Assembly (NCBI RefSeq): GCF_000385135.1
Contig: NZ_ARQM01000011.1
Span: 744,001 to 808,000, forward strand
From: Promicromonospora sukumoe 327MFSha3.1
GTDB lineage: Bacteria > Actinomycetota > Actinomycetes > Actinomycetales > Cellulomonadaceae
DNA: 64,000 nucleotides
Direction: 5' to 3'
Part shown: piece by piece, positions 11,187-32,290 of the stretch
Layout: every line of letters begins with the position of its first letter
How positions within the stretch are numbered: position 1 is the stretch's first letter
Notes under the pieces: model-generated
Database searches by the model: none
Told to the model about the DNA's origin: nothing
The model's input: only the letters and a program-made list of their open reading frames with translations
Program-made: the position numbers and the translations under genes

Positions 11187-11300
11187 GAAGATCACGGTAG
11201 AGCGCCCTGCATCAATTTAGGCAGGCCGGTGACGGGTGAATAGGGCCAAAAAGCGGGTGAACCGAGAATTGGGTGAAAATGAACCGACGAGGTGAATGTT
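11187..11300 (-). promoter_or_regulatory. Ligase operon promoter with YTCACCC boxes
   Basis: Coding-strand -10 TACCGT (11194-11199). A TTCACCC box (11234-11240 on this strand) lies 34 bases upstream of it, and three more same-orientation boxes follow at 11255-11261, 11271-11277 and, as TTCACCT, 11290-11296. The -35 region is poor. It shares its layout with five other promoters of the locus. Confidence 0.6.
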
Positions 11301-11370
11301 CGTACCGGAGGCAGAACTCATCCGGGAGGGGCTGAAAAATGCATAGTGAATTGTGCCCGGGCGGGCTTGT

Positions 11371-11400
11371 TTCACCTCGGCGCGTTGTTTTTCACCTCGG
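11371..11400 (+). repeat. Paired TTCACCTCGG direct repeat
   Basis: The ten bases TTCACCTCGG occur at 11371-11380 and again at 11391-11400, exactly 20 bases apart, just past the stop of the GNAT-type gene (minus strand). The core is close to the promoter box of the locus, but no promoter in the matching direction is evident. Confidence 0.5.
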
Positions 11401-11408
11401 CGTGCGGC

Positions 11409-12275
11409 TCACCACGGCACCTGCGTCAGCTCGCTGTAGAGGTAGGAGACCGACTCCGGCGGGCGGCCCGTGCGGCTCAGGTACATCGTGGGGCGCTGCG
11501 CGGGCAGCCGGACGGAGTGCCACGGCCGGGGCCCGCTCACGCGGTCCTGCAGCAGGGTGAACGGCAGCCCGTGCGTGAGCAGGACGTGCCGGTAGACGGC
11601 GGGCGCCGCGACGCGGAACAGGTCGCGGTCGCTCACGTGGAGCACCGAGGCGAACAGCCGCAGGCGCTTGCGCCGCACGGCGCGGAAGACCACCCAGCAC
11701 GGCTCGCCGCGGACGACGGCGACGACGTGCCGCGCGGCGGGGGACTCCGCGTGGTCGCGGTATGCGGCCAGGTCAGCGCCGCGCAGCACGGACTCGATGT
11801 CGGGCCGCCCGGTCAGCAGCCGCACCCCCGGCGAGGGCAGCGGGAGGTTGGCCACCAGCGCTCCGGCCGTGTCCAGGTGCTGGAATCCGAGCCGCTCGTT
11901 CAGGGGGATCACGGTGCCGCTCGGGGAGAGGTCGGTGAGCTCGCGGTCGCGCTGCGCGAGCATCGCGCGCAGCAGCCGCAGCGAGTGGTGGCGGAACTCG
12001 TCCAGCACGCACCACGCCGCGACGTTGCACACGGCGCTCGGTCCGCCGGGGCCGTCCGCCTCCGAGTAGAGGGCCGCGTACACGCCCACGACCCGTCCCT
12101 CGGACTCGAGCAGGAACCCGTGGTCGGGGTGGCTGGTGGTCCAGGTGGGCCGCAGTGAGAGCGCCCATACCGCAGGGCTCAGCCGGCTGTCCAGATGCGC
12201 GCTCAGGAATTCGCCCACGCGCGGCAGATCGGCTGTCGTGACGGGAGCGAGCCCGACCTCTTTCGAATGTGCCAC
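11409..12275 (-). CDS. GNAT-type acyltransferase of the polysaccharide locus
   Basis: A 288-residue protein with a GNAT-like N-terminal half: VTTADLPRVGEFLSAHL start, GFLLESEGRVVGVYAAL central strand, CVLDEFRHHSLRLLRAMLAQ helix, and NERLGFQHLDT near residue 135. The second half resembles the partly duplicated fold of FemAB/GNAT proteins common in exopolysaccharide clusters. It probably acylates a sugar or a carrier-bound precursor in the cytosol. The start is GTG at 12273-12275, seven bases after CATACT on the coding strand; upstream extension would read through promoter DNA. It is transcribed alone and divergently from a GT4 gene, and its promoter carries the shared box. Confidence 0.72.
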   Translation of the reverse strand: MAHSKEVGLAPVTTADLPRVGEFLSAHLDSRLSPAVWALSLRPTWTTSHPDHGFLLESEGRVVGVYAALYSEADGPGGPSAVCNVAAWCVLDEFRHHSLRLLRAMLAQRDRELTDLSPSGTVIPLNERLGFQHLDTAGALVANLPLPSPGVRLLTGRPDIESVLRGADLAAYRDHAESPAARHVVAVVRGEPCWVVFRAVRRKRLRLFASVLHVSDRDLFRVAAPAVYRHVLLTHGLPFTLLQDRVSGPRPWHSVRLPAQRPTMYLSRTGRPPESVSYLYSELTQVPW

Positions 12276-12451
12276 GTCGGTGAGTATGACCCCGGGAAAA
12301 GGCGCCGGCCGGGGGTGCCCGGGGTGAAAGGGGTGCCGGGCGCTGATTTCATCCGGTAATTTGTGAACAGTTGCCGCGGGCGCATTTCTCACCCCTGTGT
12401 TCACCCGGCCCGGGGATGCCTCGGGCGCGGGCCAGACGTCACTATCGGGGA
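12276..12451. promoter_or_regulatory. Divergent promoter region with shared activator-like boxes
   Basis: Serves the GNAT-type gene (minus) and the GT4 gene (plus). Minus promoter: CATACT (12283-12288), box TTCACCC at 12322-12328, gap 33. Plus promoter: CACTAT (12440-12445), box TTCACCC at 12400-12406, gap 33, with a second box CTCACCC 12 bases further upstream (12388-12394). Both -10 elements lie 6-7 bases from their start codons. Neither has a recognisable -35. Confidence 0.65.
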
Positions 12452-13714
12452 GTGGCTGTCAACGAACCGATCGGGTCCTCCCGCGTGGACCACGTGCTGC
12501 TGATCGCACCCGCGTGCGACGGCAACGACGTGGGCGAGTCCTGGGTCGCCCACCAGTGGGCGCAGCTGCTGTCGGAGCGGTTCCGGGTGACGCTCCTGTC
12601 CACGTACAAGAAGGACCACGTGCCGCCGTCCCGGCAGCTCCCGGGCGTGCGCGTCGTCGAGTGGGCCGAGCCGCCGCTCGTGCACCGGGCCGAGCGGCTC
12701 AACAGCCTGCTCCAGCCGGCGTACGTACCGTTCTACCGGCGGGCCCGGCGCTGGGTGCGCGGCCGGCTCGCGGCGGGCGAGCGGTTCGACGTGGCGCACC
12801 AGGCGACGCCCGTGGCGATGCGCTACCCGTCACCCGTCGTCGGCCTCGGCATCCCCCTGGTCGTCGGTCCGGTCGGCGGCAGCCTGGAGTCCCCGCCCGC
12901 GTTCGCCCAGGAGGAGATCGTGCCGTGGTACCAGCGGCTCCGCGGGCTGGACCGGCTGCGGCTGCGGTACGACCCGCTCCTGCGCTCGACCTACGAGACC
13001 GCCGACTGCGTCGTGGGCATCGCCCCCTACGTGCGCGAGGTCCTCGGCGAGGTGCGGCTGCGCCGGTTCGAGACCCTCCGCGAGGTGGCCCTGCACCAGG
13101 TGCGACCCGAGATCGACCGCAGGGGTCGTACCGGTCCCGTTCGGCTGCTGCACGTCGGGCGGCTGGTGCGGACCAAGGGCGCCCGCGACGTCATCCGGGC
13201 CATGGCCACGCTGCGCGACCTGCCGGTGGTGCTCGACGTCGTCGGGGACGGCAACGACCGGCAGGCGTGCGCCGACCTGGTGCGTGAGCTCGGGCTGACC
13301 GACCGGGTGACGCTGCACGGGGCGGTGCCGCGCGCCGACGTCGACCGCTTCTACGAGGAGGCCGACGTCTTCGTCTTCCCGAGCTACCGGGAGCCGGGCG
13401 GCGCCGTCGCGCTGGAGGCCATGTCGCACGGGCTGCCGCTCGTCGTCTGCGACCGCGGCGGCCCCGGCGCCAACGTGACCGACGCCTGCGCGTTCGTGCT
13501 GCCCGCCGAGTCCCCCGACCAGCTCGCCCGCGACGTCGCCGCCGCGGTGCGCCGCCTGGTCACCGAGCCGGACCTGCGGCTGCGCATGGGCGAGGCCGCC
13601 CGCGAGCACGCGGTGGCCGAGCACCTGTGGGACAGGCGGGTCGACCAGATGGTCGAGCTCTACGAACAGGTCGCCACGGCGCGGCCGGCTGCCGGGGCCC
13701 AGGCCACCGGATGA
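12452..13714 (+). CDS. GT4-family glycosyltransferase
   Basis: A 420-residue retaining glycosyltransferase with GT-B fold. The N-terminal half (VDHVLLIAPACDGNDVGESWVAHQWAQLL) binds the acceptor. The C-terminal half starts at LLHVGRLVRTKGARDVIRAM and contains FPSYREPGGAVALEAMSHGLPLVVCDRGG, the E-x7-E donor-binding motif of family GT4. The GTG at 12452 is chosen because CACTAT ends six bases before it; an ATG at 12416 would lie upstream of that -10 element. The downstream beta-helix gene overlaps its stop by four bases (ATGA). It likely adds one sugar to the lipid-linked repeat unit. Confidence 0.88.
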   Translation: MAVNEPIGSSRVDHVLLIAPACDGNDVGESWVAHQWAQLLSERFRVTLLSTYKKDHVPPSRQLPGVRVVEWAEPPLVHRAERLNSLLQPAYVPFYRRARRWVRGRLAAGERFDVAHQATPVAMRYPSPVVGLGIPLVVGPVGGSLESPPAFAQEEIVPWYQRLRGLDRLRLRYDPLLRSTYETADCVVGIAPYVREVLGEVRLRRFETLREVALHQVRPEIDRRGRTGPVRLLHVGRLVRTKGARDVIRAMATLRDLPVVLDVVGDGNDRQACADLVRELGLTDRVTLHGAVPRADVDRFYEEADVFVFPSYREPGGAVALEAMSHGLPLVVCDRGGPGANVTDACAFVLPAESPDQLARDVAAAVRRLVTEPDLRLRMGEAAREHAVAEHLWDRRVDQMVELYEQVATARPAAGAQATG

Positions 13715-14724
13715 GCGAGGACGACCGGCGTGCCAGGATGACCCGCATGGGCACCTCGTCGTGGCGGGTCCCGCTCCGCTGGGCAACCGGAGCGCTGGTC
13801 GCCGCCGTCCTGACCACCCTCGCCACCGCACCGCGGGACGAGCCCGACACGTCCGGGCCCTCCGCCGAGCAGGCCACGGCGTCGGCCACCGACGGACCCG
13901 TGAGCGACGGCAGCGCCCCGACGGGGAAGGCCACGCCGCTGACGTTCCCCACGCCCGGGACCGCGGGCCTGCCCGACGGGTGGACGCCGAAGCGCACCCA
14001 CACGGGCGACCTCCACCTGACCGAGCCCGGCGAGGTGGTCAGCGACCTGCGGATCACGGACGGCATCATCTCTGTGGAGGCGGAGAACGTGACCCTGCGG
14101 CGGGTGCAGGCCGTCGGGTCCCGGGTGGTGAACGACAACGGGCCGGAGTGCGGGTCGGGCCTGGTGGTCGAGCAGTCCGAGTTCGTCCGGAGCTCCAGGC
14201 GGACGACGGACGGCGACCTGCAGGTCATCGGCAACGGCGGGTTCACGGTGCGCGACGTCGTGATCGACGGCGTGCCCGAGGGCATCCGGGTGGGCGCCGC
14301 GCAGTGCGGCGGCGTCGTCGTGGAGGACACCTTCATCCGGGTGGTCCCGCCCGACGACTGCGGAGACTGGCACGGCGACGGCATCCAGGGCTACGGCGGC
14401 GGCGCGCTGACCGTGAAGAACACCCGGATCGTCATGCGCGAGACCGCCGACTGCTACGGGACCGCCCCGTTCTTCTACCCGAGCGGCCAGGGCAACACGT
14501 CGCTGACCGTCGACGGCCTGCTGGTCGAGGGCGGCGGCTACGCGTTCCGCGCCGGCACCCCGGGCAGCGTGCGCAACCTGCAGGTCGTGGGTGACACCTG
14601 GGGCTACGGGCCGGTCGACGTGCTCTGCTCCGCCCTGACCGACTGGCAGGCGCACACCGTGACGGTCGGCGACGACGGCACCCGGCCGGTCGACCCGATA
14701 GCGTGCGCGGGCAGCGGCAACTGA
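13711..14724 (+). CDS. Membrane-anchored right-handed beta-helix protein
   Basis: A 337-residue extracytoplasmic protein. One hydrophobic segment (about residues 20-40, LRWATGALVAAVLTTLATA) acts as signal or anchor, followed by a Ser/Thr/Pro-rich spacer. A pectate-lyase-like parallel beta-helix then follows, with repeated rungs such as NVTLRRVQAVGSRV, GFTVRDVVIDGVPEGIRVG and ALTVKNTRIVM. Conserved CGDWHGDGIQGYGGG and NTSLTVDGLLVEGGGYAFR rungs resemble polysaccharide lyases or epimerases. It probably cuts, trims or binds the exported polymer. The ATG at 13711 overlaps the glycosyltransferase stop (ATGA), which suggests coupling; a second ATG at 13747 follows CAGGAT by seven bases and could also be used. 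Confidence 0.78.
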   Translation: MSEDDRRARMTRMGTSSWRVPLRWATGALVAAVLTTLATAPRDEPDTSGPSAEQATASATDGPVSDGSAPTGKATPLTFPTPGTAGLPDGWTPKRTHTGDLHLTEPGEVVSDLRITDGIISVEAENVTLRRVQAVGSRVVNDNGPECGSGLVVEQSEFVRSSRRTTDGDLQVIGNGGFTVRDVVIDGVPEGIRVGAAQCGGVVVEDTFIRVVPPDDCGDWHGDGIQGYGGGALTVKNTRIVMRETADCYGTAPFFYPSGQGNTSLTVDGLLVEGGGYAFRAGTPGSVRNLQVVGDTWGYGPVDVLCSALTDWQAHTVTVGDDGTRPVDPIACAGSGN

Positions 14725-14800
14725 CCCTCCCCTTCGAGGCCTAAGTTTCTTCTCTTTGGGGCGACCGAAAGAGGAGAAACTTAGGCCTCGAAGGGGAGGG
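14725..14800. repeat. Inverted repeat, CCTAAGTTTCT family, copy 1
   Basis: Arms of 26 bases (14725-14750 and 14775-14800) are perfect reverse complements; each holds the core GAGGCCTAAGTTTCT. The centre contains a weaker inner stem (CTCTTTGGGG...CCGAAAGAGG). It lies between the convergent ends of the beta-helix gene and a glycosyltransferase gene and may terminate both. First of six related copies in the window. Confidence 0.88.
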
Positions 14801-14811
14801 GGCGGCCGCCC

Positions 14812-15648
14812 TCAGGCGCGCGAGCTCGCGTCCCGCTCCCACGTCGTGAAGTCGCCCGCCCGGACGGCGGAGCGGGCGCGCAGCCGCCCGGCCAGCACCA
14901 CCCCGACGAACACGGGGACCTTGGGCGCCAGCGCCGGGCGCTCGCGGACGACCCGCCACAGGTCGCCCATGGACGTCCGGGCGCCGTCCCCGCGCAGCCC
15001 GGCCTGGTCCGCCTGCACGTTGCCGGTCGTCACCCGTGCCCGACGGCGGACGAGGTCGCGCGTCGTGCGGGCCGGGTGCACCACGACGGTGACGTCGGGG
15101 ACCACGACGCGCTCGTCCGGGGCGAACGCCTCGGAGAGCGCCAGGTCGTCGGCCATCACCTCGGGCAGCGCGGCGACCCGGCGGGCGCCCTCGCGGGACA
15201 CCGCCAGCACCCCGCGCCCGAACAGCCCGGAGCGCACCGTGGGCAGCGCCTCCCACACGTCGAGGTACCAGCGGGCGAGCGGCGCCACCCCGGTGCGGGG
15301 CATCGTGCGCGAGGGCGCCGCGACGGCCGCGCGCCCGGGGCCGACGGCGGCGGCGAGCCGGGCGACGCCGTCGGCGGTGATCTCGACGTCGGCGTCCAGG
15401 TACACGCGCGGGAACGTGGTGGCCACCCCGTCGGCCGCGCGCAGCGCGCGGGACTTGGACGGTTCCGGCAGGTCGAGGACGGTCACGGGGTACCCCGCGG
15501 CCACCCGCGCCGTGCCGTCGGTGCAGCCGTTGCAGGCGACCACCACCTCCAGCAGCCCGGGGGTGGCGCACAGGGCGGCCAGCAGCCGCCCGATCGTGCG
15601 CTCCTCGTCGTGCGCGGGCACGACGACGGACGCCACGGGCCCGGTCAT
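14812..15648 (-). CDS. GT2-family glycosyltransferase
   Basis: A 278-residue inverting glycosyltransferase with GT-A fold. It opens with ASVVVPAHDEERTIGRLLAAL, has ACNGCTDGTARVA in the nucleotide-binding region and the metal-binding DADVEI (DXD-like) motif, and the later VMADDLALSEAF gives the catalytic-base ED/DD region. The C-terminal RDLVRRRARVTTGNVQAD resembles the R/QXXRW-like region of processive or long-chain GT2 enzymes, but no membrane helices are seen, so it is probably cytosolic. It overlaps the preceding GT2 gene by four bases and ends the deacetylase operon. Confidence 0.87.
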   Translation of the reverse strand: MTGPVASVVVPAHDEERTIGRLLAALCATPGLLEVVVACNGCTDGTARVAAGYPVTVLDLPEPSKSRALRAADGVATTFPRVYLDADVEITADGVARLAAAVGPGRAAVAAPSRTMPRTGVAPLARWYLDVWEALPTVRSGLFGRGVLAVSREGARRVAALPEVMADDLALSEAFAPDERVVVPDVTVVVHPARTTRDLVRRRARVTTGNVQADQAGLRGDGARTSMGDLWRVVRERPALAPKVPVFVGVVLAGRLRARSAVRAGDFTTWERDASSRA

Positions 15649-16544
15649 CGCGGCAGCACCGCGTCGCTCGCGCCCAGCGCCGCCGGGCGCCGGGACGGCC
15701 GGACCAGCGCGCGCAGCGTGGGCCACGAGGCGCGGTGCCCGAGCAGGCCCCGCCGCAGCTCCACGAGCAGGGTGATCCCGTAGTACATCCAGGCCGCGCG
15801 CTCCCCGCACCGGCGCCGGACGAGGCGCACCCGGTTGACCATCAGCATGGTGTGCGTCTCGTGGCTGGTGCCCGAGCCGCCGCCCACGTGCATGCCGCCG
15901 GCCGCCGGCGTGTACACCGACAGCCAGCCGCGGTCGCGGGCGCGCAGCGCGAAGTCGGTCTCCTCGGAGTAGAGGAAGTACGACGGGTCGAACCCGCCCA
16001 GGGTGTCGAAGCACTCCCGGTCCACGAGCCAGATCGCGCCGACGGCCCAGTCCACGGGGTGCTCGGTGGCGTACGCGCGCGGGTCCTCGATCCGCTCGGC
16101 GAAGGCCGGCAGGCGGGTGAAGCTCAGCCCGCCGGCCCGCCCCACGGTCGGCGTGCGGCGCAGCGTCGGGGACAGGCTGCCGTCCACCTCCCGCGTGCGC
16201 GGCACCACGATGCCGACGTCGGACCGGCGCAGCACGCGGAGCATCCGCGGCACGCAGTCGGCGTCGAGCTCCACGTCCGGGTTGAGCACCAGGATCTCCG
16301 CCGCCTCCGGCGCATACCGCACCGCCTTGTTCATCCCCGCCCCGTAGCCGTCGTTCACGCTCTCGACGACGGCGCAGTCGCCCCGGCGCCGCAGCAGCGT
16401 GAGCGTCTCGTCCGTGGACCCGTTGTCGACCACCACCGTGGTGTACGGGACGTCGCCGAAGGCGGCGGGCAGGCTGTCCAGCAGGGCGTCGATGTGCCGG
16501 GCGCTGTTGTACGTGACGACGACGGCGGCGACCTCGGCGCCCAT
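15645..16544 (-). CDS. GT2-family glycosyltransferase, rhamnosyltransferase-like
   Basis: A 299-residue GT-A enzyme. Key elements: AAVVVTYNSARHIDALLDSL, VVVDNGSTDETL, GYGAGMNKAVRYA, LNPDVELDADC (DXD equivalent), then WAVGAIWLVDRECFDTLGGFDPSYFLYSEETDFALRARDRGW, which is the pattern of rhamnosyltransferases such as WbbL. The catalytic base is probably in EETD. It starts one base inside the stop of the deacetylase gene (TGATG) and overlaps the following gene by four bases, so the three are one transcript. Rhamnose as donor is a family-based guess; no rml genes are in the window. Confidence 0.87.
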   Translation of the reverse strand: MGAEVAAVVVTYNSARHIDALLDSLPAAFGDVPYTTVVVDNGSTDETLTLLRRRGDCAVVESVNDGYGAGMNKAVRYAPEAAEILVLNPDVELDADCVPRMLRVLRRSDVGIVVPRTREVDGSLSPTLRRTPTVGRAGGLSFTRLPAFAERIEDPRAYATEHPVDWAVGAIWLVDRECFDTLGGFDPSYFLYSEETDFALRARDRGWLSVYTPAAGGMHVGGGSGTSHETHTMLMVNRVRLVRRRCGERAAWMYYGITLLVELRRGLLGHRASWPTLRALVRPSRRPAALGASDAVLPR

Positions 16545-17197
16545 CAGCGCAGGCCCTTGACGAAGGTGCGGGCCCGGTCGGCCGCGCGGACCCGGTAGCG
16601 CTCGCCGTGCCGGAGCCAGCCGGCGACGTCGTCGGCCGTGTCGTGCGCGCGGAGGCTGAACCGCGCCTGGCGCCAGGCGCCGGGCCGGGCCAGCGCCCGG
16701 TCGCTCGTGTAGACCCGCTCGTAGCCGAGCCGGCGCAGCGCGCCCAGGGTGGTCCGGTCGTACCGGCCCAGCGGGCAGGCGGCGGTGACCACGGGCTCGT
16801 CCAGCACCTCCTGGAGCCGGTCCCGGGCCTCGACGAGCTCGGTGTGCACCTGGGGCGGGGTCAGCCGGCGCCAGACCCGGTGGTCCATGCCGTGCGACCC
16901 GACGCCCATGCCCGACCGGCGCAGCGTCCGGACGTCGTCGGCCGACAGCGACCCGGGCTGCCCGAGGCGGCCCGCGATGACGAAGAACTCGGCCGCGCGC
17001 CCGCGGTCGGCCAGCTCCGGGAGCGCGACCTCCAGGTCGGAGGTGTTGCCGTCGTCGAAGCTGAGCCGCACGTCCGGCCGGGCGGCGACCAGGTCGAGGA
17101 CCCGGCGGAACGTGTCGGCGCTGATCCAGTAGGCGGCCTCCTCGGCCGGGACGTCGTCCGGCGGCGTCCCGATGCCGTGAAAGCAGAGATTGATCAT
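16544..17197 (-). CDS. Polysaccharide deacetylase (NodB-like)
   Basis: A 217-residue carbohydrate esterase family 4 protein. The NodB motifs are present: LCFHGIG at the N-terminus, LSFDDGNTSD (catalytic and metal-binding aspartates) and GVGSHGMDHRVW (metal-binding histidines, H-x3-H). No signal peptide is seen, so it may act on cytosolic lipid-linked intermediates rather than on exported polymer. I chose the ATG at 17195-17197 (MINLCFHGIG), with CACGAT six bases upstream; an upstream in-frame start lies inside the promoter. It leads a three-gene operon with two GT2 genes and has the shared promoter box. Confidence 0.88.
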   Translation of the reverse strand: MINLCFHGIGTPPDDVPAEEAAYWISADTFRRVLDLVAARPDVRLSFDDGNTSDLEVALPELADRGRAAEFFVIAGRLGQPGSLSADDVRTLRRSGMGVGSHGMDHRVWRRLTPPQVHTELVEARDRLQEVLDEPVVTAACPLGRYDRTTLGALRRLGYERVYTSDRALARPGAWRQARFSLRAHDTADDVAGWLRHGERYRVRAADRARTFVKGLR

Positions 17198-17262
17198 TTG
17201 TTTATCGTGAAGGACCGGCACCGGCCGCGGAATGCATTCCCGGGTGATTGTCCGGGTGATTC
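17198..17262 (-). promoter_or_regulatory. Deacetylase operon promoter with tandem ATCACCC boxes
   Basis: Coding-strand -10 CACGAT (17204-17209) lies six bases from the ATG. Two ATCACCC boxes at 17242-17248 and 17253-17259 are direct repeats 11 bases apart; the nearer one is 32 bases upstream of the -10. No good -35 is seen. Confidence 0.6.
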
Positions 17263-17281
17263 TTGCGGTCGCCCGACGGCT

Positions 17282-18601
17282 CTATGCCCTGACCCGCAGA
17301 GAGCCCGCGACACCGATCAGGAGAAAGAGCGCGCCCATGGTCATCGGGAACGCGAAGGCGTCGAAGAAGAACAGGCAGACGAAGCCGACGACGATGGCCG
17401 CGATCAGCGACAGCGCCAGATCGTGGGTCCGGGGGTCCACCCCGGCGCTGCGCGCCCGGACCCGTACGAGCACGCGGACCGTCGCCACGCAGAGCCAGCA
17501 GAACAGGGCGGTGCCCACCAGGCCGATCGTCACCAGGAGCAGCAGGTACTGGTTGTCGAAGATCCGGTAGGTGGGCAGGAACGTGCCCAGCCCGCGGCCG
17601 AACAGCGGGTCACGTGCGATGAACTCGCCCGCCAGGTCGAACGAGCCGGTGCGCGAGGTGACGCTCGGGTCCTCCGCGGCGCCGGTGAACAGACCGAGGA
17701 TGGAGGCCAGCATGCCGGGCGCGACCACCATGCCCGCCAGCGCGCCCACTGCGGTGACGCCGAGCATGATGCGGCGGCGGGCGCCCTTCCAGCCCAGCAG
17801 CAGGATCAGCAGGCCGACGCCGGCGCCCACGTAGGCGGACCGGGACCCGCTGGCCGGCACCAGGGCGAGGGCCGCCGCCGCGGGCGCCCACCGCAGCAGG
17901 GGCCGGCGCTCGGTGTGCTCGAACCCGACGTGCAGCGTGAGCGGCAGCAGCATGGTGATCAGCACCCCGTACTCGATGGGGTGGGTGGCTGTGCCCTGCG
18001 GGCGGATCAGGCCGTTGCGCTCGCCGAGCTCGTACGGCGAGGTGAGGGTCAGGCCGGGCAGGGCGAGGCGGTCCACGAACAGCTCGCCGAGCGCGAACTG
18101 CGCCAGCCCGAGCACCGCCAGCGCGCCGCCCGCGAGGGCCAGCCGCCACACGAGCACGTCGCGCCTCTCGGCCGAGAGGATGCCGTCGTGCGCCAGCAGG
18201 AGCGTGCCCGACCAGGCGAGCAGCGCCAGGATCGCGACGTCCGCGGGGCTCATCTCGTTCGACACGACGGGCCGCGACATCGCCAGCACGTACGTGACGC
18301 CCACGCTGAACAGGAACAGAGCGAGGGAGACCCGGATCAGCCGCGGGCCGCTCAGCGCCGGCCGGGCCGCCCCGACGCCGATGAGCACCCACAGCAGCAG
18401 GCTCGCCAGGCCGAGCACCATCGACGGCGCCCCGGCGCTGCCGAGCGGGCCGATCACCAGCTTCGAGGGCACCGCGAACAGCAGGAGCAGGTAGACCGAC
18501 AGCCAGCTGACGACGTCGAACCGCACCACGCGCCGGAGCACCGGCAACGGCCGGGGCAGCGAGGCGTGCCGCCGGACGGGGGCAGGCCGGGCCTGGGTCA
18601 C
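17282..18601 (-). CDS. O-antigen ligase / Wzy-type polymerase membrane protein
   Basis: A 439-residue integral membrane protein with about eleven helices. The large periplasm-type loop in the middle carries NGLIRPQGTATHPIEYGVLITMLLP, and the RSAYVG and DPLFGRGLGTF segments match the Wzy_C domain of O-antigen ligases and polymerases. In a Wzx/Wzy system it would join lipid-linked repeat units on the outer face of the membrane. Its GTG start overlaps the stop of the chain-length gene by four bases (GTGA), so the two are co-expressed. It ends 84 bases before the deacetylase start, in the same direction. Confidence 0.87.
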   Translation of the reverse strand: MTQARPAPVRRHASLPRPLPVLRRVVRFDVVSWLSVYLLLLFAVPSKLVIGPLGSAGAPSMVLGLASLLLWVLIGVGAARPALSGPRLIRVSLALFLFSVGVTYVLAMSRPVVSNEMSPADVAILALLAWSGTLLLAHDGILSAERRDVLVWRLALAGGALAVLGLAQFALGELFVDRLALPGLTLTSPYELGERNGLIRPQGTATHPIEYGVLITMLLPLTLHVGFEHTERRPLLRWAPAAAALALVPASGSRSAYVGAGVGLLILLLGWKGARRRIMLGVTAVGALAGMVVAPGMLASILGLFTGAAEDPSVTSRTGSFDLAGEFIARDPLFGRGLGTFLPTYRIFDNQYLLLLVTIGLVGTALFCWLCVATVRVLVRVRARSAGVDPRTHDLALSLIAAIVVGFVCLFFFDAFAFPMTMGALFLLIGVAGSLRVRA

Positions 18602-19485: not shown

Positions 19486-19610
19486 TTGTTCACCCTTTCC
19501 GGGCGTATCACGCCGCGCTCAGCAAAGGTATCGTGCCGAGGGCGGGCAAAGGAACGGGTCGTGGAACTCCGGCGCGAATTTCGCCCGCTCCGAGAAATTG
19601 CGGAGAATCC
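19486..19610. promoter_or_regulatory. Divergent promoter region between two Wzz-like genes
   Basis: For the plus-strand gene, TATCGT (19529-19534) is a -10 candidate with a leader of about 70 bases; a TTCACCC box (19489-19495) lies 33 bases upstream of it, as in five other promoters of the locus. That box also overlaps the ribosome binding site of the minus-strand gene, so a protein bound there could affect both genes. Confidence 0.5.
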
Positions 19611-20363
19611 ATGACCTTGTGGGACCTGATACGTGCGGCGGTGCGGCGCTGGCCCGTCCTGCTGGCGGGTGCCGCCGTCAGCCTCGGGCTCGTGTACACC
19701 ACCACGCTGGACGACGGCGTGTACTGGAGCCGCACGCAGGTCGTCTTCCTCGCCCCCACCAGCAAGGCCTACCCGAACGCGCTGCGCACGACGTCGGAGG
19801 ACCTGATCATCACGGCGGGCGTGGTGGCCAAGGCCGTGGTCGGCCCCGCGGAGGTGACCAAGTACGCCTCCCCGGACGCGACCCTGATCGGCGAGGGCAC
19901 CCGGGACGGCTGGTCGATCCGCCTGCCGGACACGGGCGGCCAGTGGGCCCCCAACTTCGCCCAGCAGGTGCTGTACGTCGAGGTCGTGTCGGCCACCGCC
20001 GAGGAGACCGCCGCGCGGCAGGACGAGATCATCGGGCAGATCGAGCACGAGCTGGCCCGGCTGCAGAGCGACGCCGGGGTGGCGCCCGTCAACGAGATCA
20101 CCGTGACGACCGCCCCGGAGTCCACGGTCGTGCACCACGTGCAGGGCTCGCGCATCCGGGCGGCCGGCATGACGGCGGTGCTCGGCGCGTCCGCCACGTT
20201 CGCCCTCATCGCGGTGCTCGAGACGCGGGCCCGGCGGCGCGCCAGGGAGGCGGCCGCCGCTGCGGACGCCCCCGGTGACGAGACCGCCGCCGGGGACGAA
20301 GCCGCGCCCGAGGGCGAGACCGCGCCCGCCGAGGCACGCCCCGCCCAGCCCGTCGCGTACTGA
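19611..20363 (+). CDS. Second Wzz-like membrane protein, no kinase domain
   Basis: A 250-residue protein with two membrane helices (about 15-35, VLLAGAAVSLGLVYTTT, and about 183-203, AAGMTAVLGASATFALIAVL) around an extracytoplasmic domain. A short Ala/Glu-rich tail follows. The fold resembles the divergently encoded Wzz-like protein, with the same N-terminal pattern (LWDLIRAAVRRWPVLL against FLDVIAALGRRWIVTV). The two may form a mixed complex. The ATG at 19611 has GGAGA five bases upstream; the reading frame extends 44 codons further but crosses the promoter. No ATPase or tyrosine-kinase partner is encoded in the window. Confidence 0.78.
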   Translation: MTLWDLIRAAVRRWPVLLAGAAVSLGLVYTTTLDDGVYWSRTQVVFLAPTSKAYPNALRTTSEDLIITAGVVAKAVVGPAEVTKYASPDATLIGEGTRDGWSIRLPDTGGQWAPNFAQQVLYVEVVSATAEETAARQDEIIGQIEHELARLQSDAGVAPVNEITVTTAPESTVVHHVQGSRIRAAGMTAVLGASATFALIAVLETRARRRAREAAAAADAPGDETAAGDEAAPEGETAPAEARPAQPVAY

Positions 20364-25562: not shown

Positions 25563-26736
25563 GGGTTGGCCTCTCCCGTAGTCGGCCGCGGGTGACGTCC
25601 AGCGCGACGCGGGCCGCGAGCCGGGCCAGGGCGCGCGGGGAGCGGCGTCCGGTTGCCGCCGCGGCACGGTAGATCTGCTCCATCCGCTCGGCCGACGCCG
25701 TCAGCGAGTACCGTCCGGTCACGACACGGTGGCCGAACGCGCCGAGCTCCGCTCGCAGGCCGGCGTCGCGGACCAGCGGGTCCAGCGCGGCCGCCAGCGC
25801 CGGTGCCCCGGCGCCGCCGGCCCCGTACCAGCCCTGGTCGAGGAACGTGGACAGACTCGGCTCGTCGAGGCCGCGCCAGAACCCGCGCTCGCCCTGGACC
25901 ACGACCGGTTTGCCGAACGCCATCCCCTTGAGGACGGAGCTGCCCATGCCGATGACTACGTCGGCCGCGTCGTACGCGGGCCGCGGGTCGTCGAGTGCGC
26001 CCGCCACGACGACTGCGGGCCGCCCCAGCTCGGCGTTGACCTTCTCGGCACGTGCCGCCGTGGCGTCGGCCCGGGGGCCGTCGCCCACCACGAGCAGTCG
26101 GACCGGGCTGGCGGGGCCGGCCTGCTCGACCACGTCCATCGCCTCGAGGATGCCCGCCGTCTTGTCGAGGTCGTCGGTGAGGCGGCAGACCACGGCGACG
26201 ACGACGTCATCGGGCCGGAACCCCCACCGTGCTCGAGCTTCTGGGCCGCCCGCGACGCCCAGCGCGTTGGCGACGGTGTCCACGGGCGGCTCGAGGAGTT
26301 CGACGTGCCGGTAGGCCCGGTCCGCCGCCTCCTGGGCGAGCTGGCGGGTGCCGACCACGAGGGGGAGGTGCCGCGGGATGTACCCGGAGACGTACATCGA
26401 CATCGTCGTCACCACGGCCGGCGTGCCGGCCAGGAGGTGCGTACCGAGCGCCACGTCGATGGCGGGGCCCCACTCGTAGGCGTGCACCACGTCGGCGCGG
26501 GTCCGCCGCACGGCGGAGACGACCTGCGCCATGTTCCGGGGGGACGGCCAGCTCAGGTGGGTCGGCAGGGTCACCGTGTCGAGCCCGAACCGGTCCGCCA
26601 CCTCCCACAGGGCTCCGCCCGGAGGCGCGAGCACCAGCACGTCGTGGCCGCGGGCCATGGTCTCCCGGGCGAGCTCGAGGGCGCCGAGCTGGCTGCCACC
26701 GATCTCCATGTGGTGCACGTACACGACGACTCTCAT
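25555..26736 (-). CDS. GT4-family glycosyltransferase
   Basis: A 393-residue GT-B enzyme. The N-terminal domain begins VVVYVHHMEIGGSQLGALELARETMARGHDV, a common GT4 acceptor-domain start with the G-G-S/A loop. The donor domain has LLVVGDGPRADATAARAEKVN and ADVVIGMGSSVLKGMAFGKPVVVQGERGF, where the usual E-x7-E motif is altered (SVLKGMAFGKPVVVQGE keeps the second glutamate position only). Donor binding may therefore differ from classical GT4 enzymes. It overlaps the acetyltransferase gene by four bases and the flippase gene by eight, within the main operon. Confidence 0.82.
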   Translation of the reverse strand: MRVVVYVHHMEIGGSQLGALELARETMARGHDVLVLAPPGGALWEVADRFGLDTVTLPTHLSWPSPRNMAQVVSAVRRTRADVVHAYEWGPAIDVALGTHLLAGTPAVVTTMSMYVSGYIPRHLPLVVGTRQLAQEAADRAYRHVELLEPPVDTVANALGVAGGPEARARWGFRPDDVVVAVVCRLTDDLDKTAGILEAMDVVEQAGPASPVRLLVVGDGPRADATAARAEKVNAELGRPAVVVAGALDDPRPAYDAADVVIGMGSSVLKGMAFGKPVVVQGERGFWRGLDEPSLSTFLDQGWYGAGGAGAPALAAALDPLVRDAGLRAELGAFGHRVVTGRYSLTASAERMEQIYRAAAATGRRSPRALARLAARVALDVTRGRLRERPTRD

Positions 26737-27389
26737 GGCGTCGTTCCCACGGTGCTGCCGGACCTGAGGCGCTGGGCCGGCACGCCCGCCCACGTCTCGC
26801 CGTCCGGCACGTCGGTCAGGACCACGGCGCCCATGCCCACCACGGCGCCCGCGCCGATCCGGACGCCGGGGTGCACGGAAGCGTTCATGCCGAGGTAGGC
26901 CGCGCGGCCCACCCGCACGCCGCCGCCGAGGGAGACCCCGGCGGCCAGCGTCGCGAGGTCCTCGACCACGCAGTCGTGCGTGATCGTCACGTGCGGCATG
27001 GCGACGACGTGCGCGCCGACGGTCGCGTCGGCGGTGATCGTCACGCCCGCCAGCAGGATCGAGCCCTCCCCGACCGGGCACCCGCCCGGGTTGCGCACCG
27101 ACGGGTCCACCACACGCCCGTAGGTCACGCCCGTGCCCAGCCGCTGGTGCACCGCGGCGCGGGTCCGGCTCGGGCCCATGCACAGCAGCACGTGCGCGCC
27201 GGGGTGCTGCGCCGCGGACGTCACCGGCCCCAGCACCGGGGCGCCGCCGATCGTGGGCGGCAGGTCGGCGTGGCGGTCGTCGAGGACGCCGAGCACCTCG
27301 TGCCCGGCCTCGGCGGCCACGGGTAGCACCTCGCGGGCCAGCCCGCTCGCCCCGACCAGCAGCAGCGGCCCGCCCCAGCTCGCCGCCAC
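26733..27389 (-). CDS. PglD/NeuD-type sugar acetyltransferase
   Basis: A 218-residue protein with a short Rossmann-like N-terminal domain (LLLVGASGLAREVLPVA, VLGVLDDRHADLPP) and a left-handed beta-helix of hexapeptide repeats (GSILLAGVTITADATVGAHVVAMPHVTITHDC onward). This is the layout of PglD and NeuD. PglD acetylates a 4-amino sugar nucleotide, NeuD O-acetylates sialic acid. Between two aminotransferases and an epimerase, N-acetylation of an amino sugar nucleotide is the likelier role. His in THDC is the expected catalytic base. The GTG at 27387-27389 lies one base after the stop of the second aminotransferase. Confidence 0.87.
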   Translation of the reverse strand: MAASWGGPLLLVGASGLAREVLPVAAEAGHEVLGVLDDRHADLPPTIGGAPVLGPVTSAAQHPGAHVLLCMGPSRTRAAVHQRLGTGVTYGRVVDPSVRNPGGCPVGEGSILLAGVTITADATVGAHVVAMPHVTITHDCVVEDLATLAAGVSLGGGVRVGRAAYLGMNASVHPGVRIGAGAVVGMGAVVLTDVPDGETWAGVPAQRLRSGSTVGTTP

Positions 27390-27390
27390 G

Positions 27391-28545
27391 TCACTGCCCC
27401 CCGTACCCGCGGAGCACCTGGACCACGCGGTCGAGCTCGGTGTCCGTCATCTGGTGGAACAGGGGCAGGATCAGCGTGCCGTCCGTGAGCCGCTCGGTCA
27501 CGGGCAGCGGCATGTGGGTCCGGTCGGCGTGCGCGGGCTGCCGGTGCGCGGCCATGATGCCGCGCCGCGCGGAGATGCTCGCGGCGGCCAGGGCCTGGAG
27601 CAGCCCCTCCCGGTCGAGACCGTAGCCCGGCAGCACCTCCACCCACAGCGACTGCACGTTGCCGGTGCCGTAGGCCGGGTCGTCGACGAGGCGCAGGCCG
27701 GTCACGCCGGCCAGCGCCGCGCGGTAACGGGCGGCGAGCTCCCGCCGCCGCGCCACGATCGCGGGCAGGCGGCCGAGCTGCACCAGGCCGACGGCGGCCT
27801 GCAGGTCCGTCATCCGGAAGTTGAAGCCGACCTCGTCGTACTCCTCCGGCGGCGACACGAGCGAGGCGTGCCGGTCCGCCGCCGAGACGCTCATGGCGTG
27901 CTCGCGCAGGCGGCGGGCGCGGGTGGCCCACTCCGGGCGGCTGGTGGTGATCATGCCGCCCTCGCCGGTCGTCAGGATCTTGCGGGGGTGGAACGACCAC
28001 GCGACGATCTCGGCGCCCGCCCCGACGGGGCGGTCGCGGTAGGTCGAGCCCGCGCCGCAGGCGGCGTCCTCGATCACCACGACGCCCAGCGGGTCGCACA
28101 CCTCGCGGATCGCGGCCAGGTCCACCGGCACGCCGGCCTGGTCGACCGCGATCACCGCGCGGGTCGCGGGGGTGAGCGCGGCCGCCACCGTCTCGGCCGT
28201 CACGTTGCCGGTGGCGGCGTCCACGTCCGCGAACACGGGCCGCGCACCCACGTACGTGGGCGCGTTCGCCGTCGCGACGAACGAGAAGGACGGCACGACG
28301 ACGTCGTCCCCGGCGCCGACGCCCGCCACGACCAGGGCGAGGTGCAGCGCCGTCGTGCAGCTCGACGTCGCCACCGCGGCGCGGGCGCCCATCGCCTCGG
28401 CGAACGCCGCCTCGAACGCGGCGACGCGCGGGCCCTGGGCCACCCAGCCCGACTCGATCACCTCGGTGACCGCGGCGACCTCCTCGGCGCCGAGCCACGG
28501 CTTCATGACGTCGACCCGCTGCAGGCCCTCCTCCACGGCGGTCAC
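27391..28545 (-). CDS. DegT/DnrJ/EryC1-type sugar aminotransferase (second)
   Basis: A 384-residue PLP enzyme. It has VMKPWLGAEEVAAVTEVIESGWVAQGPRV, SSCTTALHLALVVAGVGAGDDVVVPSFSF, VVIEDAACGAGSTY and the Schiff-base Lys189 in SFHPRKILTTGEGG. The FHPRK/TTGEGG form matches the 4-amino branch (PglE, ArnB, DesI-like) better than the first aminotransferase at 22837-24003, so the two probably act on different positions. The GTG start at 28543-28545 overlaps the epimerase stop (GTGA). With the PglD-like gene just downstream it could make a 4-acetamido sugar. Confidence 0.9.
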   Translation of the reverse strand: MTAVEEGLQRVDVMKPWLGAEEVAAVTEVIESGWVAQGPRVAAFEAAFAEAMGARAAVATSSCTTALHLALVVAGVGAGDDVVVPSFSFVATANAPTYVGARPVFADVDAATGNVTAETVAAALTPATRAVIAVDQAGVPVDLAAIREVCDPLGVVVIEDAACGAGSTYRDRPVGAGAEIVAWSFHPRKILTTGEGGMITTSRPEWATRARRLREHAMSVSAADRHASLVSPPEEYDEVGFNFRMTDLQAAVGLVQLGRLPAIVARRRELAARYRAALAGVTGLRLVDDPAYGTGNVQSLWVEVLPGYGLDREGLLQALAAASISARRGIMAAHRQPAHADRTHMPLPVTERLTDGTLILPLFHQMTDTELDRVVQVLRGYGGQ

Positions 28546-29588
28546 GAGGTCACCCCCGCGGGCTCGGACGCGACCCAGTTGCGGTCCTCGATGCGGCTCA
28601 GCATCTCCTCCGGGCTCTCGGGCCGGGTGCGGAACCAGTCGACCAGGTCGGCGACGCCCTGCTCGAAGCCGGTGCGCGGCGCGAACCCGGTCAGCTCGCT
28701 GACCAGGGTGTTGTCCACCAGCAGGCGGCGCACGTCGCCCGGACGCGCCTCCAGCCGCACCGGCTCGAGGTCGGGCCGGCCGGCGAGCCGGGCGACCGTC
28801 TCCACGAGCTCGTTGATGGTCACCTCGGCACCCGAGCCCACGTTGACCGTGCGGCCGATCGCGGCGTCGCACTCCGCGATCTCGGCCAGGGCCCGCGCGG
28901 TGTCGCTGACGTGCAGGAAGTCGCGCGTCTGCTCGCCGTCGCCGTAGACGAAGCCGGGCAGGCCGCACAGGGCCCGCACGATGGTGCGCGGCAGCACCTC
29001 GCCGCTGTCGCCCTCGAAGTGGCTCCGCGGGCCGAACGTGTTGAACGGCCGGACCACGACCACCGGCATGCCGTGCGTGCGGTACGCGGCGCGCGCGTAC
29101 GCCTCCCCGGCCAGCTTGGACCCGCCGTAGACCGTCTCGGGCCAGGTCGGGTGCTCCTCGTTCATCGGGGCGTACTGCGCGGTGCCGAACACCTCGCTGG
29201 AGCTGACGTGCACGAACCGCCGCACGCCCGCCGCGCGTGCCCGTTCGAGCAGCTCCAGCGTGGCGGTGGCGTTGACCTCGTGGTTCTCGCGCGGGTTGTG
29301 CAGGCTGTGCCGCACCCCCAGGCAGGCCAGGTGGAAGACGACGTCCGCGTCGTCGACCAGCGCGAGCGCCGCCTCGCTGCGGATGTCGTCGGCGACGAGG
29401 CGCACGGTGGCGTCGTCCGCCGCGGCGTCGGCGATGTGGTGCGCGATGTTCTCGCGCCGCCCGTTGACCAGGTTGTCCACCACGGTGACCGACGCCGCGC
29501 CGCGGCGGACCAGCTCGTCCACCAGGTGGCTGCCGATGAACCCCGCGCCGCCCGTGACCAGGACGCGCGCCCCGTTCAGGCCGCTCAT
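28542..29588 (-). CDS. NAD-dependent sugar epimerase/dehydratase (extended SDR)
   Basis: A 348-residue extended short-chain dehydrogenase acting on nucleotide sugars. The NAD-binding motif is LVTGGAGFIGSHLVDELVRRG, HVSSSEVFG carries the catalytic Ser/Thr, and YGGSK gives the Tyr-x3-Lys pair. The RPFNTFGPRSHFEGDSGEVLPRTI and YGDGEQTRDFLHVSD segments are usual for UDP-hexose 4-epimerases, UDP-xylose synthases and dTDP-glucose 4,6-dehydratases; the sequence does not decide among these. It starts with an ATG overlapping the oxidoreductase stop by four bases. Confidence 0.9.
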   Translation of the reverse strand: MSGLNGARVLVTGGAGFIGSHLVDELVRRGAASVTVVDNLVNGRRENIAHHIADAAADDATVRLVADDIRSEAALALVDDADVVFHLACLGVRHSLHNPRENHEVNATATLELLERARAAGVRRFVHVSSSEVFGTAQYAPMNEEHPTWPETVYGGSKLAGEAYARAAYRTHGMPVVVVRPFNTFGPRSHFEGDSGEVLPRTIVRALCGLPGFVYGDGEQTRDFLHVSDTARALAEIAECDAAIGRTVNVGSGAEVTINELVETVARLAGRPDLEPVRLEARPGDVRRLLVDNTLVSELTGFAPRTGFEQGVADLVDWFRTRPESPEEMLSRIEDRNWVASEPAGVTS

Positions 29589-30676
29589 GCCGCACCGTTC
29601 CCGGCCGGCTCGCCCGCGAGCACCGGCGTGCGTGCGCCGGTCCCGACGGGGGAGACGTCGCCGCCCGCGGCGAGGCTGCGGTCCGCGGCCTCCAGCACGT
29701 CGAGCACGCGCAGGCCCGCCGCGCCGTCGGTCAGGGCCGGGCGCTCGCCGTGGATCGCCGCGGCGAGCTCGCCCACCATGGAGCCGAGCGCCTCGCGCTC
29801 CTCCAGGGCGGGCGACCAGGTGTCGCCCAGGCGGTAGGAGATGGTCGCGGCCCGGCGCTCCAGGCTGTCGAACGCCTGGGTCTCCAGGTCCACACCGCGG
29901 TCGTAGACGCTGATCCGCTGCTGCGGGTTCAGGTCGTCCCACACGAGCGTGCGGCGCGACCCGCCGATCGTCATCCGCCGCACCTTCGTGGGGCTGAGCC
30001 AGTTCACGTGCACGCTGGCCACCGCGCCGCCGGGCAGCGGCAGCACCAGGTAGCCCACGCAGGACTTGCCCGCGCCGATCGGGTCGGCGCCGTGCGCGGC
30101 CACCGACCCGGGCTGCAGGCCGTCGGGCAGGATGAAGTCGAGGACCGACAGGTCGTGCGGCGCCAGGTCCCAGAACACGTCCACGTCCGGCTGGACCAGC
30201 CCGAGGTTGATCCGCACCGAGTCGATGTACAGGATGTCGCCCAGGTCGCCGCCCGCCACCAGCTCGCGGATCTTGCGGACCGCCGGCGTGTAGCAGTAGG
30301 TGTGGTCGGTCATCAGCACCAGCCCGCGGGACCGGGCCTCGGCGACCATCTCGCCGGCGGCCGCCGCGCGGTCGGCGATCGGCTTCTCGACGACCACGTG
30401 CTTGCCGGCCCGCAGCGCCGCCAGCGCGATCGCGTGGTGCGTCCGGGCCGGGGTGGCGATGGCGACGGCGTCGACGTCGTCCCGCTCCAGCAGCGCGTCG
30501 AGCGACGTCTCGACGTCGACCCGGCCGTTGGCGCGGGCCACGCGGGCCGCCCGGTCCGCGTCGAGGTCGCAGACCGCCGCCAGCTCCCAGCGGTCGGACG
30601 CCGCGAAGTTGCGTGCCAGGTTGGGTCCCCAGTAGCCGGCGCCCACCACGGCCGCCCGCAAGGTTTTCTGGTCCAT
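29585..30676 (-). CDS. Gfo/Idh/MocA oxidoreductase, WlbA/WbpB-like
   Basis: A 363-residue NAD-dependent sugar oxidoreductase. Motifs: AAVVGAGYWGPNLARNFAAS (Rossmann fold), VAIATPARTHHAIALAALRAGKHVVVEKPIA with the EKP lysine, and LMTDHTYCYTPAVRKIRELV and VFWDLAPHDLSVLDFIL, where the His of APHD is the catalytic residue of the family. This form is close to the dehydrogenases that oxidise UDP-N-acetylglucosaminuronic acid at C3 before amination. It heads the nine-gene operon running to 20392. The ATG has GAAGAAGG upstream; a TACATT (30737-30742, minus strand) could be the promoter. Confidence 0.88.
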   Translation of the reverse strand: MDQKTLRAAVVGAGYWGPNLARNFAASDRWELAAVCDLDADRAARVARANGRVDVETSLDALLERDDVDAVAIATPARTHHAIALAALRAGKHVVVEKPIADRAAAAGEMVAEARSRGLVLMTDHTYCYTPAVRKIRELVAGGDLGDILYIDSVRINLGLVQPDVDVFWDLAPHDLSVLDFILPDGLQPGSVAAHGADPIGAGKSCVGYLVLPLPGGAVASVHVNWLSPTKVRRMTIGGSRRTLVWDDLNPQQRISVYDRGVDLETQAFDSLERRAATISYRLGDTWSPALEEREALGSMVGELAAAIHGERPALTDGAAGLRVLDVLEAADRSLAAGGDVSPVGTGARTPVLAGEPAGNGAA

Positions 30677-30878
30677 GCTGCCTTCTTCCGGTATCAGCTC
30701 GGATCGGCCCGGAGTGTTGTCATCCTGGCTCCGATCAATGTACGTCCCGGCGTGGAGGCGAACCGGCCGGTGCCTTTCTAATTCACCCCTGACCGGTCTT
30801 TTATCACCCGGAGGGGAGTTTCACCCGGAGGTGAAATATGAATGCGGGCGCGGCCGTTCAGAATGCCGTGACCGGCAT
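30677..30878 (-). promoter_or_regulatory. Upstream region of the main biosynthetic operon
   Basis: A gap of 202 bases without a gene. It holds a candidate minus-strand -10 (TACATT, 30737-30742) and a cluster of box-like elements: TTCACCC at 30782-30788 and 30820-30826, ATCACCC at 30803-30809, and AGGTGAA at 30829-30835. Their orientation is opposite to that in the six matched promoters, so their role here is less clear. It may also hold the end of the GT4 transcript. Confidence 0.4.
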
Positions 30879-32102
30879 TCAGCCGCGCTCCTCGGACAAT
30901 GCGCGGGAGCGGCCCGTCAGGCCGTCGAACACCCGCACGTACGTCTCGGCCTGGCGGGACCAGGCCAGCTCGCCCTCGATCCGGGCGCGACCGGCCAGGC
31001 CCATGGCGCGGGCGCGGTCCGGGTCGTCGAGGATCTCGAGGATCGCGTCGCCGAACGGCGCCGCGTCGCTCCCGGCGACGTACCGCGCCGCGTCGCCCGC
31101 GCTGCGCCGGGTCTCGGTCAGGTCCGTCGCCACGACGGGCAGCTCGTGCGCCATGTACTCCAGCGTCTTGTTCATGGTGGAGCGGTCGTTGAACTCGCTG
31201 GGCGGGTCGGGCGTGACGCCCAGGTCGGCGCTGGAGAGCCACCGACCGATGGCGGCGTGGTCCACCCGTCCGGTGAAGTGCACCCAGAGGTCCAGCCCGC
31301 GGCGCGTGCAGTCCGCGCGCAGCTCCTCCAGCGCGTCCCCGAACCCGAGCAGCGCGAACCGCACGTCGGTGCGCCCGCGCACCTTCACCACGTGCTCGAT
31401 CGCCGCCAGCAGCCGGTCGACGCCGTCCTGCGAGCCCATGATCCCCACGTAGCAGACGAGGTACTTGCCCAGGTCACGGGCCCCCGGCTCGGGGTCGCCG
31501 CGGCGCATCAGGTCGGCGTCGGGCGTGCTCAGCACCACCGAGCTGCGGCTCAGGTCGACGTTCCCGCGCTCCAGCGCGATCTGCCGGTAGGAGCCGTTCG
31601 TCGAGATCACGTGGTCCGCGGTGCGGTACGTCGCGCGCTCCAGCAGGAGCAGGGCCCTGTACAGGAGGTCGCGCCGGCCGAACTTGGCCACGTACACCTC
31701 GGGGCACAGGTCGTGCTGGTCGTAGACGAAGCGCACCCCGCGGCGCAGCCGCCACAGCAGCGCGAGCAGCCAGTACGTGTCCGGCGGGTTGCAGGCCTGG
31801 ATCACCTGGAACGGCGCGTCGCGGTGCACCCGCGCCGCGGCCCGCGCCGTGCGCCACCAGCAGACCACGAACTCGCGCACGTATCCCAGGACGCCGCGCG
31901 ACTCGGGCGGAGGCGGGTAGGAGTACACGGTCGTCTCGTCGACCTGGAACCGGGCCGGCTCGTCGTCGTTCTCCTGCGGGCAGACGACGCTCACGCGGTA
32001 GCCGGCGTCCGTCAGGGCGCGGCACTCGGACCTGACCCTGCGGTCGATCCGGAACGGCAGGTTCTGGATGATCACCAGAACATGTGGGGCGTCGGAATGC
32101 AT
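30879..32102 (-). CDS. GT4-family glycosyltransferase
   Basis: A 407-residue GT-B enzyme. It begins HVLVIIQNLPFRIDRRVRSECRALTDAGYRVSVVCPQ, and FVYDQHDLCPEVYVAKFGRRD is a signature of the subgroup that acts early on lipid-linked sugars in actinobacterial exopolysaccharide loci. The donor domain has VCYVGIMGSQDGVDRLLAAI, FALLGFGD, and DPPSEFNDRSTMNKTLEYMAHELPVVATDL with the E-x7-E-like region. It is transcribed alone. The ATG at 32100-32102 follows AACACT (coding strand) by six bases, and the promoter has the shared CTCACCC box. Confidence 0.87.
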   Translation of the reverse strand: MHSDAPHVLVIIQNLPFRIDRRVRSECRALTDAGYRVSVVCPQENDDEPARFQVDETTVYSYPPPPESRGVLGYVREFVVCWWRTARAAARVHRDAPFQVIQACNPPDTYWLLALLWRLRRGVRFVYDQHDLCPEVYVAKFGRRDLLYRALLLLERATYRTADHVISTNGSYRQIALERGNVDLSRSSVVLSTPDADLMRRGDPEPGARDLGKYLVCYVGIMGSQDGVDRLLAAIEHVVKVRGRTDVRFALLGFGDALEELRADCTRRGLDLWVHFTGRVDHAAIGRWLSSADLGVTPDPPSEFNDRSTMNKTLEYMAHELPVVATDLTETRRSAGDAARYVAGSDAAPFGDAILEILDDPDRARAMGLAGRARIEGELAWSRQAETYVRVFDGLTGRSRALSEERG

Positions 32103-32290
32103 GAGGAAAGTGTTGCCCCGACGGCACGGCCCAGAAAGCCGGGGAGCGGGTGAGAACGGGGATTCACCCGGGCGCGCGGGTGATATCCGCCCCGCGAGAC
32201 ATCACCCGGGAATCACCCCGTTCCCCACTTGATTCCCGACGGTATCTCATGAATGGGTGAAAAGGTGCCGCGGTAAACCGTCGCGGTATT
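32103..32290 (-). promoter_or_regulatory. GT4 promoter with a cluster of CACCC boxes
   Basis: Minus-strand -10 AACACT (32109-32114) with a CTCACCC box at 32148-32154, gap 33. Five further boxes lie upstream in both orientations (32163-32169, 32178-32184, 32201-32207, 32212-32218, 32255-32261), the densest group in the window. The pair at 32163-32184 forms an inverted TTCACCCGG/GCGGGTGA arrangement. Confidence 0.55.

Follow-up and report, generated by a model that had tools for sequence, protein, structure and literature searches.

In the exopolysaccharide locus of Promicromonospora sukumoe 327MFSha3.1, a 7-bp box of the TTCACCC type recurs at set distances from the -10 hexamers of the promoters. 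We studied it in a 64,000-nucleotide stretch of contig NZ_ARQM01000011.1 (positions 744,001 to 808,000 of the forward strand; throughout, the window; GC 74%), part of the 6.25-Mb, 18-contig source genome (G000). The boxes, their conservation, their spacing preferences and their period are seen directly in the DNA. At a probability of roughly 0.7, the boxes are the sites of one activator of an envelope and exopolysaccharide regulon, encoded outside the locus. A bolder proposal is put forward tentatively, at slightly less than even odds: that the regulon is family-wide and previously undescribed, with a regulator that matches none of the characterised ones, 7-bp words at period 12, weak and partly leaderless promoters, and a helix-phased -10 distance particular to each box orientation.

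Spaced boxes at the promoters of the locus

The initial annotation of this DNA had proposed six promoters, each with a box 32-34 bases from a -10-like hexamer, and all six boxes, hexamers and gaps are present as described (Table 1). That the boxes share one orientation and a fixed distance is true of these six; it does not hold in general, because reverse boxes follow other spacing. The six are also only a subset, with more boxes before the sugar transferase gene, before the MocA operon and in the region 32163-32261; many of these additional boxes are opposite in orientation. Likewise, the further direct-repeat box noticed at two promoters exists, and there are more repeats at the ligase and MocA operons.

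At five of the six promoters an in-frame ATG or GTG follows the hexamer after 6-7 bases, so these five transcripts are probably leaderless. The hexamers are weak as -10 elements and nAnnnT is a loose pattern; what speaks for them is that they are conserved and that a start codon follows so closely. In agreement with the annotation, no TTGACA-like -35 stands at a spacer of 17, the sole spacer examined, where the promoters read GCCTAA, CGGCCG, TGCCTC, TTCCGC, TATCAC and TTTCTG.

The boxes are far more frequent than composition predicts. HTCACCC occurs 52 times in the window against 23 ± 5 in shuffled sequence, a count reached by none of 100 shuffles. The 23 boxes per 1,830 non-coding bases of the locus amount to about ten times the sampled background, which is 1.2 per kb in one 400-kb contig sample and 1.5 per kb in a second that includes the locus; the density in coding sequence is 0.36-0.38 per kb. 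Over 800 kb of contig, TTCACCC tops its 105 anagrams in non-coding count (53; runner-up 25, median 8).

Spacing was evaluated in 38% of the source genome, with genes called by a simple in-house caller and TTG starts dropped (2,036 called genes in 2.39 Mb). Box-N32..34-nAnnnT-N6..7-ATG/GTG precedes 10 of these genes, against a mean of 0.76 and a maximum of 4 for the same element built on 29 permuted boxes. Five of the ten are the locus genes that suggested the pattern, and the independent part consists of the five outside the locus. When the hexamer is restricted to TAnnnT, forward gaps of 32-34 sum to 9 (permuted-box mean 0.76, maximum 3) and reverse gaps of 38-40 and 48-49 to 13 (mean 1.21, maximum 5); two of the 9 and two of the 13 lie within the window. 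The reverse gaps were picked after the tandem-site peaks in relatives had been seen and before counting in the source genome.

One further geometry appeared in the same counts. The highest value at any single gap is for forward TAnnnT exactly 43 bases from the box, in 10 upstream regions (G000 C10 and C11), where permuted boxes reach 5. These boxes are all ATCACCC or CTCACCC (TTCACCC in 0 of 10), and perhaps represent a second geometry or another regulator.

Conservation in relatives

Six relatives of the same genus with a sugar transferase locus were compared; the length of the stretch per species sets each denominator, and orthologous promoters are non-independent observations. Box, gap and -10 are retained while the intervening sequence diverges, which upholds the element on alignment. 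At the ligase promoter, the box and TAmCGTG are kept in seven of seven species (source included) at gaps of 32-34; the gene in the GNAT position keeps the box and nATACT in all five species with sequence (gap 33-34). For the deacetylase, ATCACCC-N5-ATCACCC-N32-CACGAT-N6-ATG is found in four of four species with a diverged spacer. The first GT4 gene has a box 32-33 bases from CACTAT in four species (in L272 the proximal box is CTCACCC) and is missing at this position of the locus in one. Upstream of the second Wzz-like gene, about 75 bp are nearly identical throughout in four of four species (window 19486-19640); this exceeds the needs of one box and a -10, and the conservation there is therefore not box-specific. 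Beyond the genus, a secreted-protein promoter of genus g14 carries a tandem with a gap of 32 to TAGCCT or TACCCT in four genomes. The promoter before a protein resembling it in G004 (L243) has three boxes and neither spacing.

Boxes of reverse orientation

The sugar transferase promoters carry the pair in reverse. GGGTGAA-N5-GGGTGAA is found in seven of seven species, apart from a final G in a single box of one species, and in all seven a reverse box lies 48-50 bases from a -10 of TATTAT, TACTAT or TAATAT. Three of the seven have a second reverse box at 37-38, one period nearer to the -10. Upstream, a conserved GACAG comes to within 16 bases of this -10. In another genus of the family, six sugar transferase loci (TIGR03025, above cut-off) have the same reverse tandem with a gap of 38-39 to TAnnnT.

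The leader of the sugar transferase gene (window 6897-7060) is long and strongly conserved in the seven species, with one more box near the start codon; it may act as a second promoter or as a leader element.

Tandem repeats and the reach of the putative regulon

Head-to-tail pairs extend well beyond the locus. TTCACCC-N4..7-TTCACCC gives 73 matches in 13 genomes of the source's genus (g1) against 1 for the backwards control; by hand count, the spacer is N5 in 49 of the 73 and N4 in 9. The pattern is present in 37 of 59 genomes, among them the source and all 13 of genus g1, and with a spacer of N3..8 in 140 of 221 genomes of the family. Repeats other than N5 pairs also occur, with box distances of 21 and 16 at the ligase and of 21 and 17 at the MocA operon.

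After removal of identical cores and of coding sites, 55 non-coding tandem sites with an N5 spacer were used for gap profiles. Forward nAnnnT, with a mean count of 1.44, reaches 12 at a gap of 32. For reverse TAnnnT the mean is 0.55, and the count rises to 6 at 39 and 5 at 48, with a minor peak of 3 at 60. Reverse nAnnnT, whose mean is 1.83, has peaks at 29 (8), 39 (9) and 48 (7). Most of the genus's tandem sites outside exopolysaccharide loci match neither spacing.

In 40 neighbourhoods of the genus (five sites were coding and were dropped), the tandem adjoins the sugar transferase in six genomes and the ligase in one. Other genes adjoin it recurrently, and one example of each was scanned, giving family matches to a transglycosylase/transpeptidase, an amidase, a LytR-CpsA-Psr protein, an acyltransferase, a penicillin amidase, an exo/endonuclease-phosphatase and a sodium:alanine symporter; a lipoprotein and an Ig-like surface protein match no family and bear our own labels. 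Among exopolysaccharide loci with the same ligase, WTCACCC pairs (spacer 3-16) were found in none of 23 from other actinobacteria and in one of 15 others, in coding sequence; these are 38 of 80 such loci, and the gene caller, tuned to 74% GC, is poor on many of them.

A proposed activator

We propose that one trans-acting activator turns on the exopolysaccharide locus together with other envelope genes. Its subunits would bind 7-bp WTCACCC words, often arranged head to tail, 12 or 21 bp apart (one or about two helical turns). The protein would sit upstream of the -35 position, with the proximal box 32-34 bp from the -10 if forward and 37-39 and/or 48-50 bp from it if reverse. There it would recruit RNA polymerase to weak -10 promoters, mostly lacking a recognisable -35 (the sugar transferase promoter has its conserved GACAG), and several transcripts would start at or beside the start codon. 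The annotation had already suggested an activator site next to RNA polymerase, and the spacing statistics and the conservation of box, gap and -10 agree with it; the protein, activation rather than repression, the type of contact and the transcription starts are what we infer from these patterns.

The locus itself had been said to contain no regulator gene. Scans of its proteins reported no DNA-binding family, which fits, although a number of these proteins lack any family match. Regulator-like genes of TetR, IclR, MerR, LacI and sigma-factor types (labels from sequence) adjoin boxes, and none of the box-adjoining genes was recognised as a likely candidate for a regulator with boxes in its own promoter.

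The fixed gap is not a property of boxes at large: the A+T profile over 183 boxes has no peak, and the gap emerges only when a -10 pattern is required. Several observations count against this activator model. The forward TAnnnT peak at 43 and the reverse nAnnnT peak at 29 are not explained by the proposed spacing. Nearly half of the tandem sites (25 of 55) have nAnnnT at neither gap, including those of the conserved lipoprotein and Ig-like surface proteins of the genus, and the 12 forward cases stem from about six gene families, whose orthologues are non-independent. Non-envelope genes, for example the sodium:alanine symporter, also adjoin tandem sites. Finally, the conserved box at 6958 lies downstream of the proposed sugar transferase promoter and could mean repression.

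Alternative explanations and known regulators

The heptamer resembles the Streptomyces PHO unit, in which GTTCACC is conserved within 11-nt units (PMC6988585, PMC4415409), and PolR of Microlunatus phosphovorus binds GTTCAC-N5-GTTCaC (PMC6754071). The boxes could accordingly be PHO boxes of SenX3-RegX3 (PhoR-PhoP), with the polymer locus induced by phosphate starvation. Locus boxes and PHO boxes (PhoP/RegX3, PolR) have in common that a word with TTCAC is directly repeated upstream of promoters, and in the genome a senX3-regX3-like pair precedes two pstS-like genes that bear one period-11 PHO-type box each (G000 C16:222055-225532; labels from sequence). PHO boxes have a period of 11, however, whereas the locus boxes have a period of 12 or 21 and polymer or envelope targets. 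Period 12 outscores period 11 in five of seven promoter regions, two are ties and in none is 11 ahead: the sugar transferase region gives 13 against 10, GNAT/GT4a 12 against 10 and the deacetylase 10 against 8, while the ligase (11 against 10) and MocA (10 against 9) are near the background level of about 10. Both pstS control boxes behave in the opposite way (13/14 at period 11, 10 at period 12). The leading G of GTTCACC is present in only 5 of the 23 locus boxes, and N5 spacers outnumber N4 in the genus. With period and leading base failing in the locus where pstS of the same genome passes, PHO boxes were set aside as the principal explanation and appear quite unlikely.

Another OmpR-type response regulator such as MtrA, with a lineage-specific site, would suit the many envelope genes among the box targets. 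MtrA likewise has cell-wall genes among its targets and binds short imperfect direct repeats: the Streptomyces site is (G/T)T(G/A)ACC-N5-GT(G/T)ACN, while in Mycobacterium tuberculosis repeats of 9 nt are spaced by 2 nt (PMC5650626, PMC6265350). The comparison, by published consensus, sets a GT-n-AC core and another period against our boxes; the MtrA sites in those texts are neither TTCACCC nor of period 12, and we consider this explanation decidedly unlikely.

The boxes might instead bind a repressor or nucleoid protein, the genes staying off until a signal frees it. Promoters with several boxes in both orientations would suit such a protein, as would the box that is conserved on the 3′ side of the sugar transferase -10. 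A similar layout is found at the eps promoter of Bacillus subtilis, where SinR represses from several 7-bp sites in either orientation; the likeness is in the multiple 7-bp sites before exopolysaccharide genes, and the difference is that SinR is a repressor and is not known to keep a set -10 distance. Proximal boxes at set distances upstream of weak -10s, mostly without a -35, are what activation would lead one to expect, and repression seems unlikely. Chance, or the base composition of a genome with 74% GC, might be suspected from the looseness of nAnnnT and the flat A+T profile. This reading is extremely improbable in view of the shuffles, the permuted-box and backwards controls and the conservation across species, and for the locus as a whole these controls already refute it.

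Other regulators were compared with the proposed activator. The MarA, SoxS and Rob proteins of Escherichia coli bind an asymmetric 20-bp site whose allowed distance from the -10 depends on orientation; they share this orientation dependence, differ in having one 20-bp site in place of 7-bp direct repeats, and no family link is implied. The half-site of BldD fits TTCACCC; BldD was rejected because Pfam BldD-like_C is found in none of the 37 genomes of family f1 searched, G000 included, and the matches in 9 of 59 genomes are all from other families. LytTR was rejected with no matches in G000 (99% complete) and in six of the twelve other genomes of genus g1 (one of them 83% complete). The SARP domain BTAD has seven matches in G000, one weak match (2.6e-4) in G032, a genome with the element at the sugar transferase gene, and no match in G028, which bears tandem sites. 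Literature searches, from whose coverage subscription papers are largely absent, turned up no publication on this element.

Significance

The regulation of exopolysaccharide loci of the ligase/decarboxylase type seems little studied in actinobacteria. The element is conserved and its distances depend on orientation, which makes it suitable bait for the regulator. It also predicts a regulon, comprising the priming sugar transferase, cell-wall enzymes, a LytR-CpsA-Psr protein and surface proteins, and it predicts transcription starts that can be checked in one experiment.

Features of the locus and further observations

The exopolysaccharide locus spans about 5.4 to 32.1 kb of the window. Family scans assign its priming sugar transferase to TIGR03025, its decarboxylase to TIGR03099 and its ligase to TIGR03098, all above cut-off, and further identify a hexapeptide transferase, an acyl carrier protein-like protein, glycosyltransferases, a deacetylase, a Wzy_C protein, a flippase and amino-sugar genes. 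The two Wzz-like proteins and the "GNAT" gene (11409-12275) match no family and keep the labels of the initial annotation.

Table 1. Boxes and candidate -10 hexamers of the locus (window coordinates; gaps in bases between proximal box and -10)
Feature	Position	Strand	Remark
Proximal TTCACCC, ligase/decarboxylase operon	11234..11240	-	gap 34 to -10
Two further TTCACCC, ligase promoter (at 11255 and 11271)	11255..11277	-	11255 box conserved in alignment
-10 TACCGT, ligase promoter	11194..11199	-	7 bases to GTG 11186
TTCACCC, "GNAT" gene promoter	12322..12328	-	gap 33
-10 CATACT, "GNAT" gene	12283..12288	-	7 bases to GTG 12275
CTCACCC-N5-TTCACCC, first GT4 promoter	12388..12406	+	proximal-box gap 33
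-10 CACTAT, first GT4	12440..12445	+	6 bases to GTG 12452
ATCACCC-N5-ATCACCC, deacetylase operon promoter	17242..17260	-	gap 32
-10 CACGAT, deacetylase	17204..17209	-	6 bases to ATG 17197
TTCACCC between divergent Wzz-like genes, promoter of 19611-20363(+)	19489..19495	+	gap 33
-10 TATCGT, second Wzz-like gene	19529..19534	+	76 bases to ATG 19611, not leaderless
CTCACCC, second GT4 promoter (start ATG 32102)	32148..32154	-	gap 33
-10 AACACT, second GT4	32109..32114	-	6 bases to ATG 32102
Opposite-orientation box, second GT4 promoter	32163..32169	+	48 bases from the -10 also used by the forward box at 33
TTCACCC-N5-TTCACCC (period 12; boxes at 7240, 7252)	7240..7258	+	opposite to sugar transferase gene 5442-6896(-)
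-10 TATTAT, sugar transferase promoter	7186..7191	-	48 bases from proximal box
Further TTCACCC just upstream of sugar transferase start	6958..6964	+	kept in 6 of 7 species
Three boxes (30782, 30803, 30820)	30782..30826	+	opposite to MocA-type oxidoreductase gene 29585-30676(-)
Candidate -10 TACATT, MocA operon	30737-30742		gap 39 from reverse box

Boxes also cluster outside the locus. Four of them, two per orientation, lie at window positions 52368-52479 between the succinate-CoA ligase alpha and DUF6350 genes, where neither spacing fits by eye. Seven boxes of the same orientation, six of them spaced 11-14, fall within about 120 bp before a universal-stress-like gene (G000 C10:803438-803558). 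In 800 kb of C11, heptamers such as AAGAAAC, AAACTTA, TTAGGCC and CAAAGCG each have about 30 copies, almost all non-coding, which suggests a repeated intergenic element.

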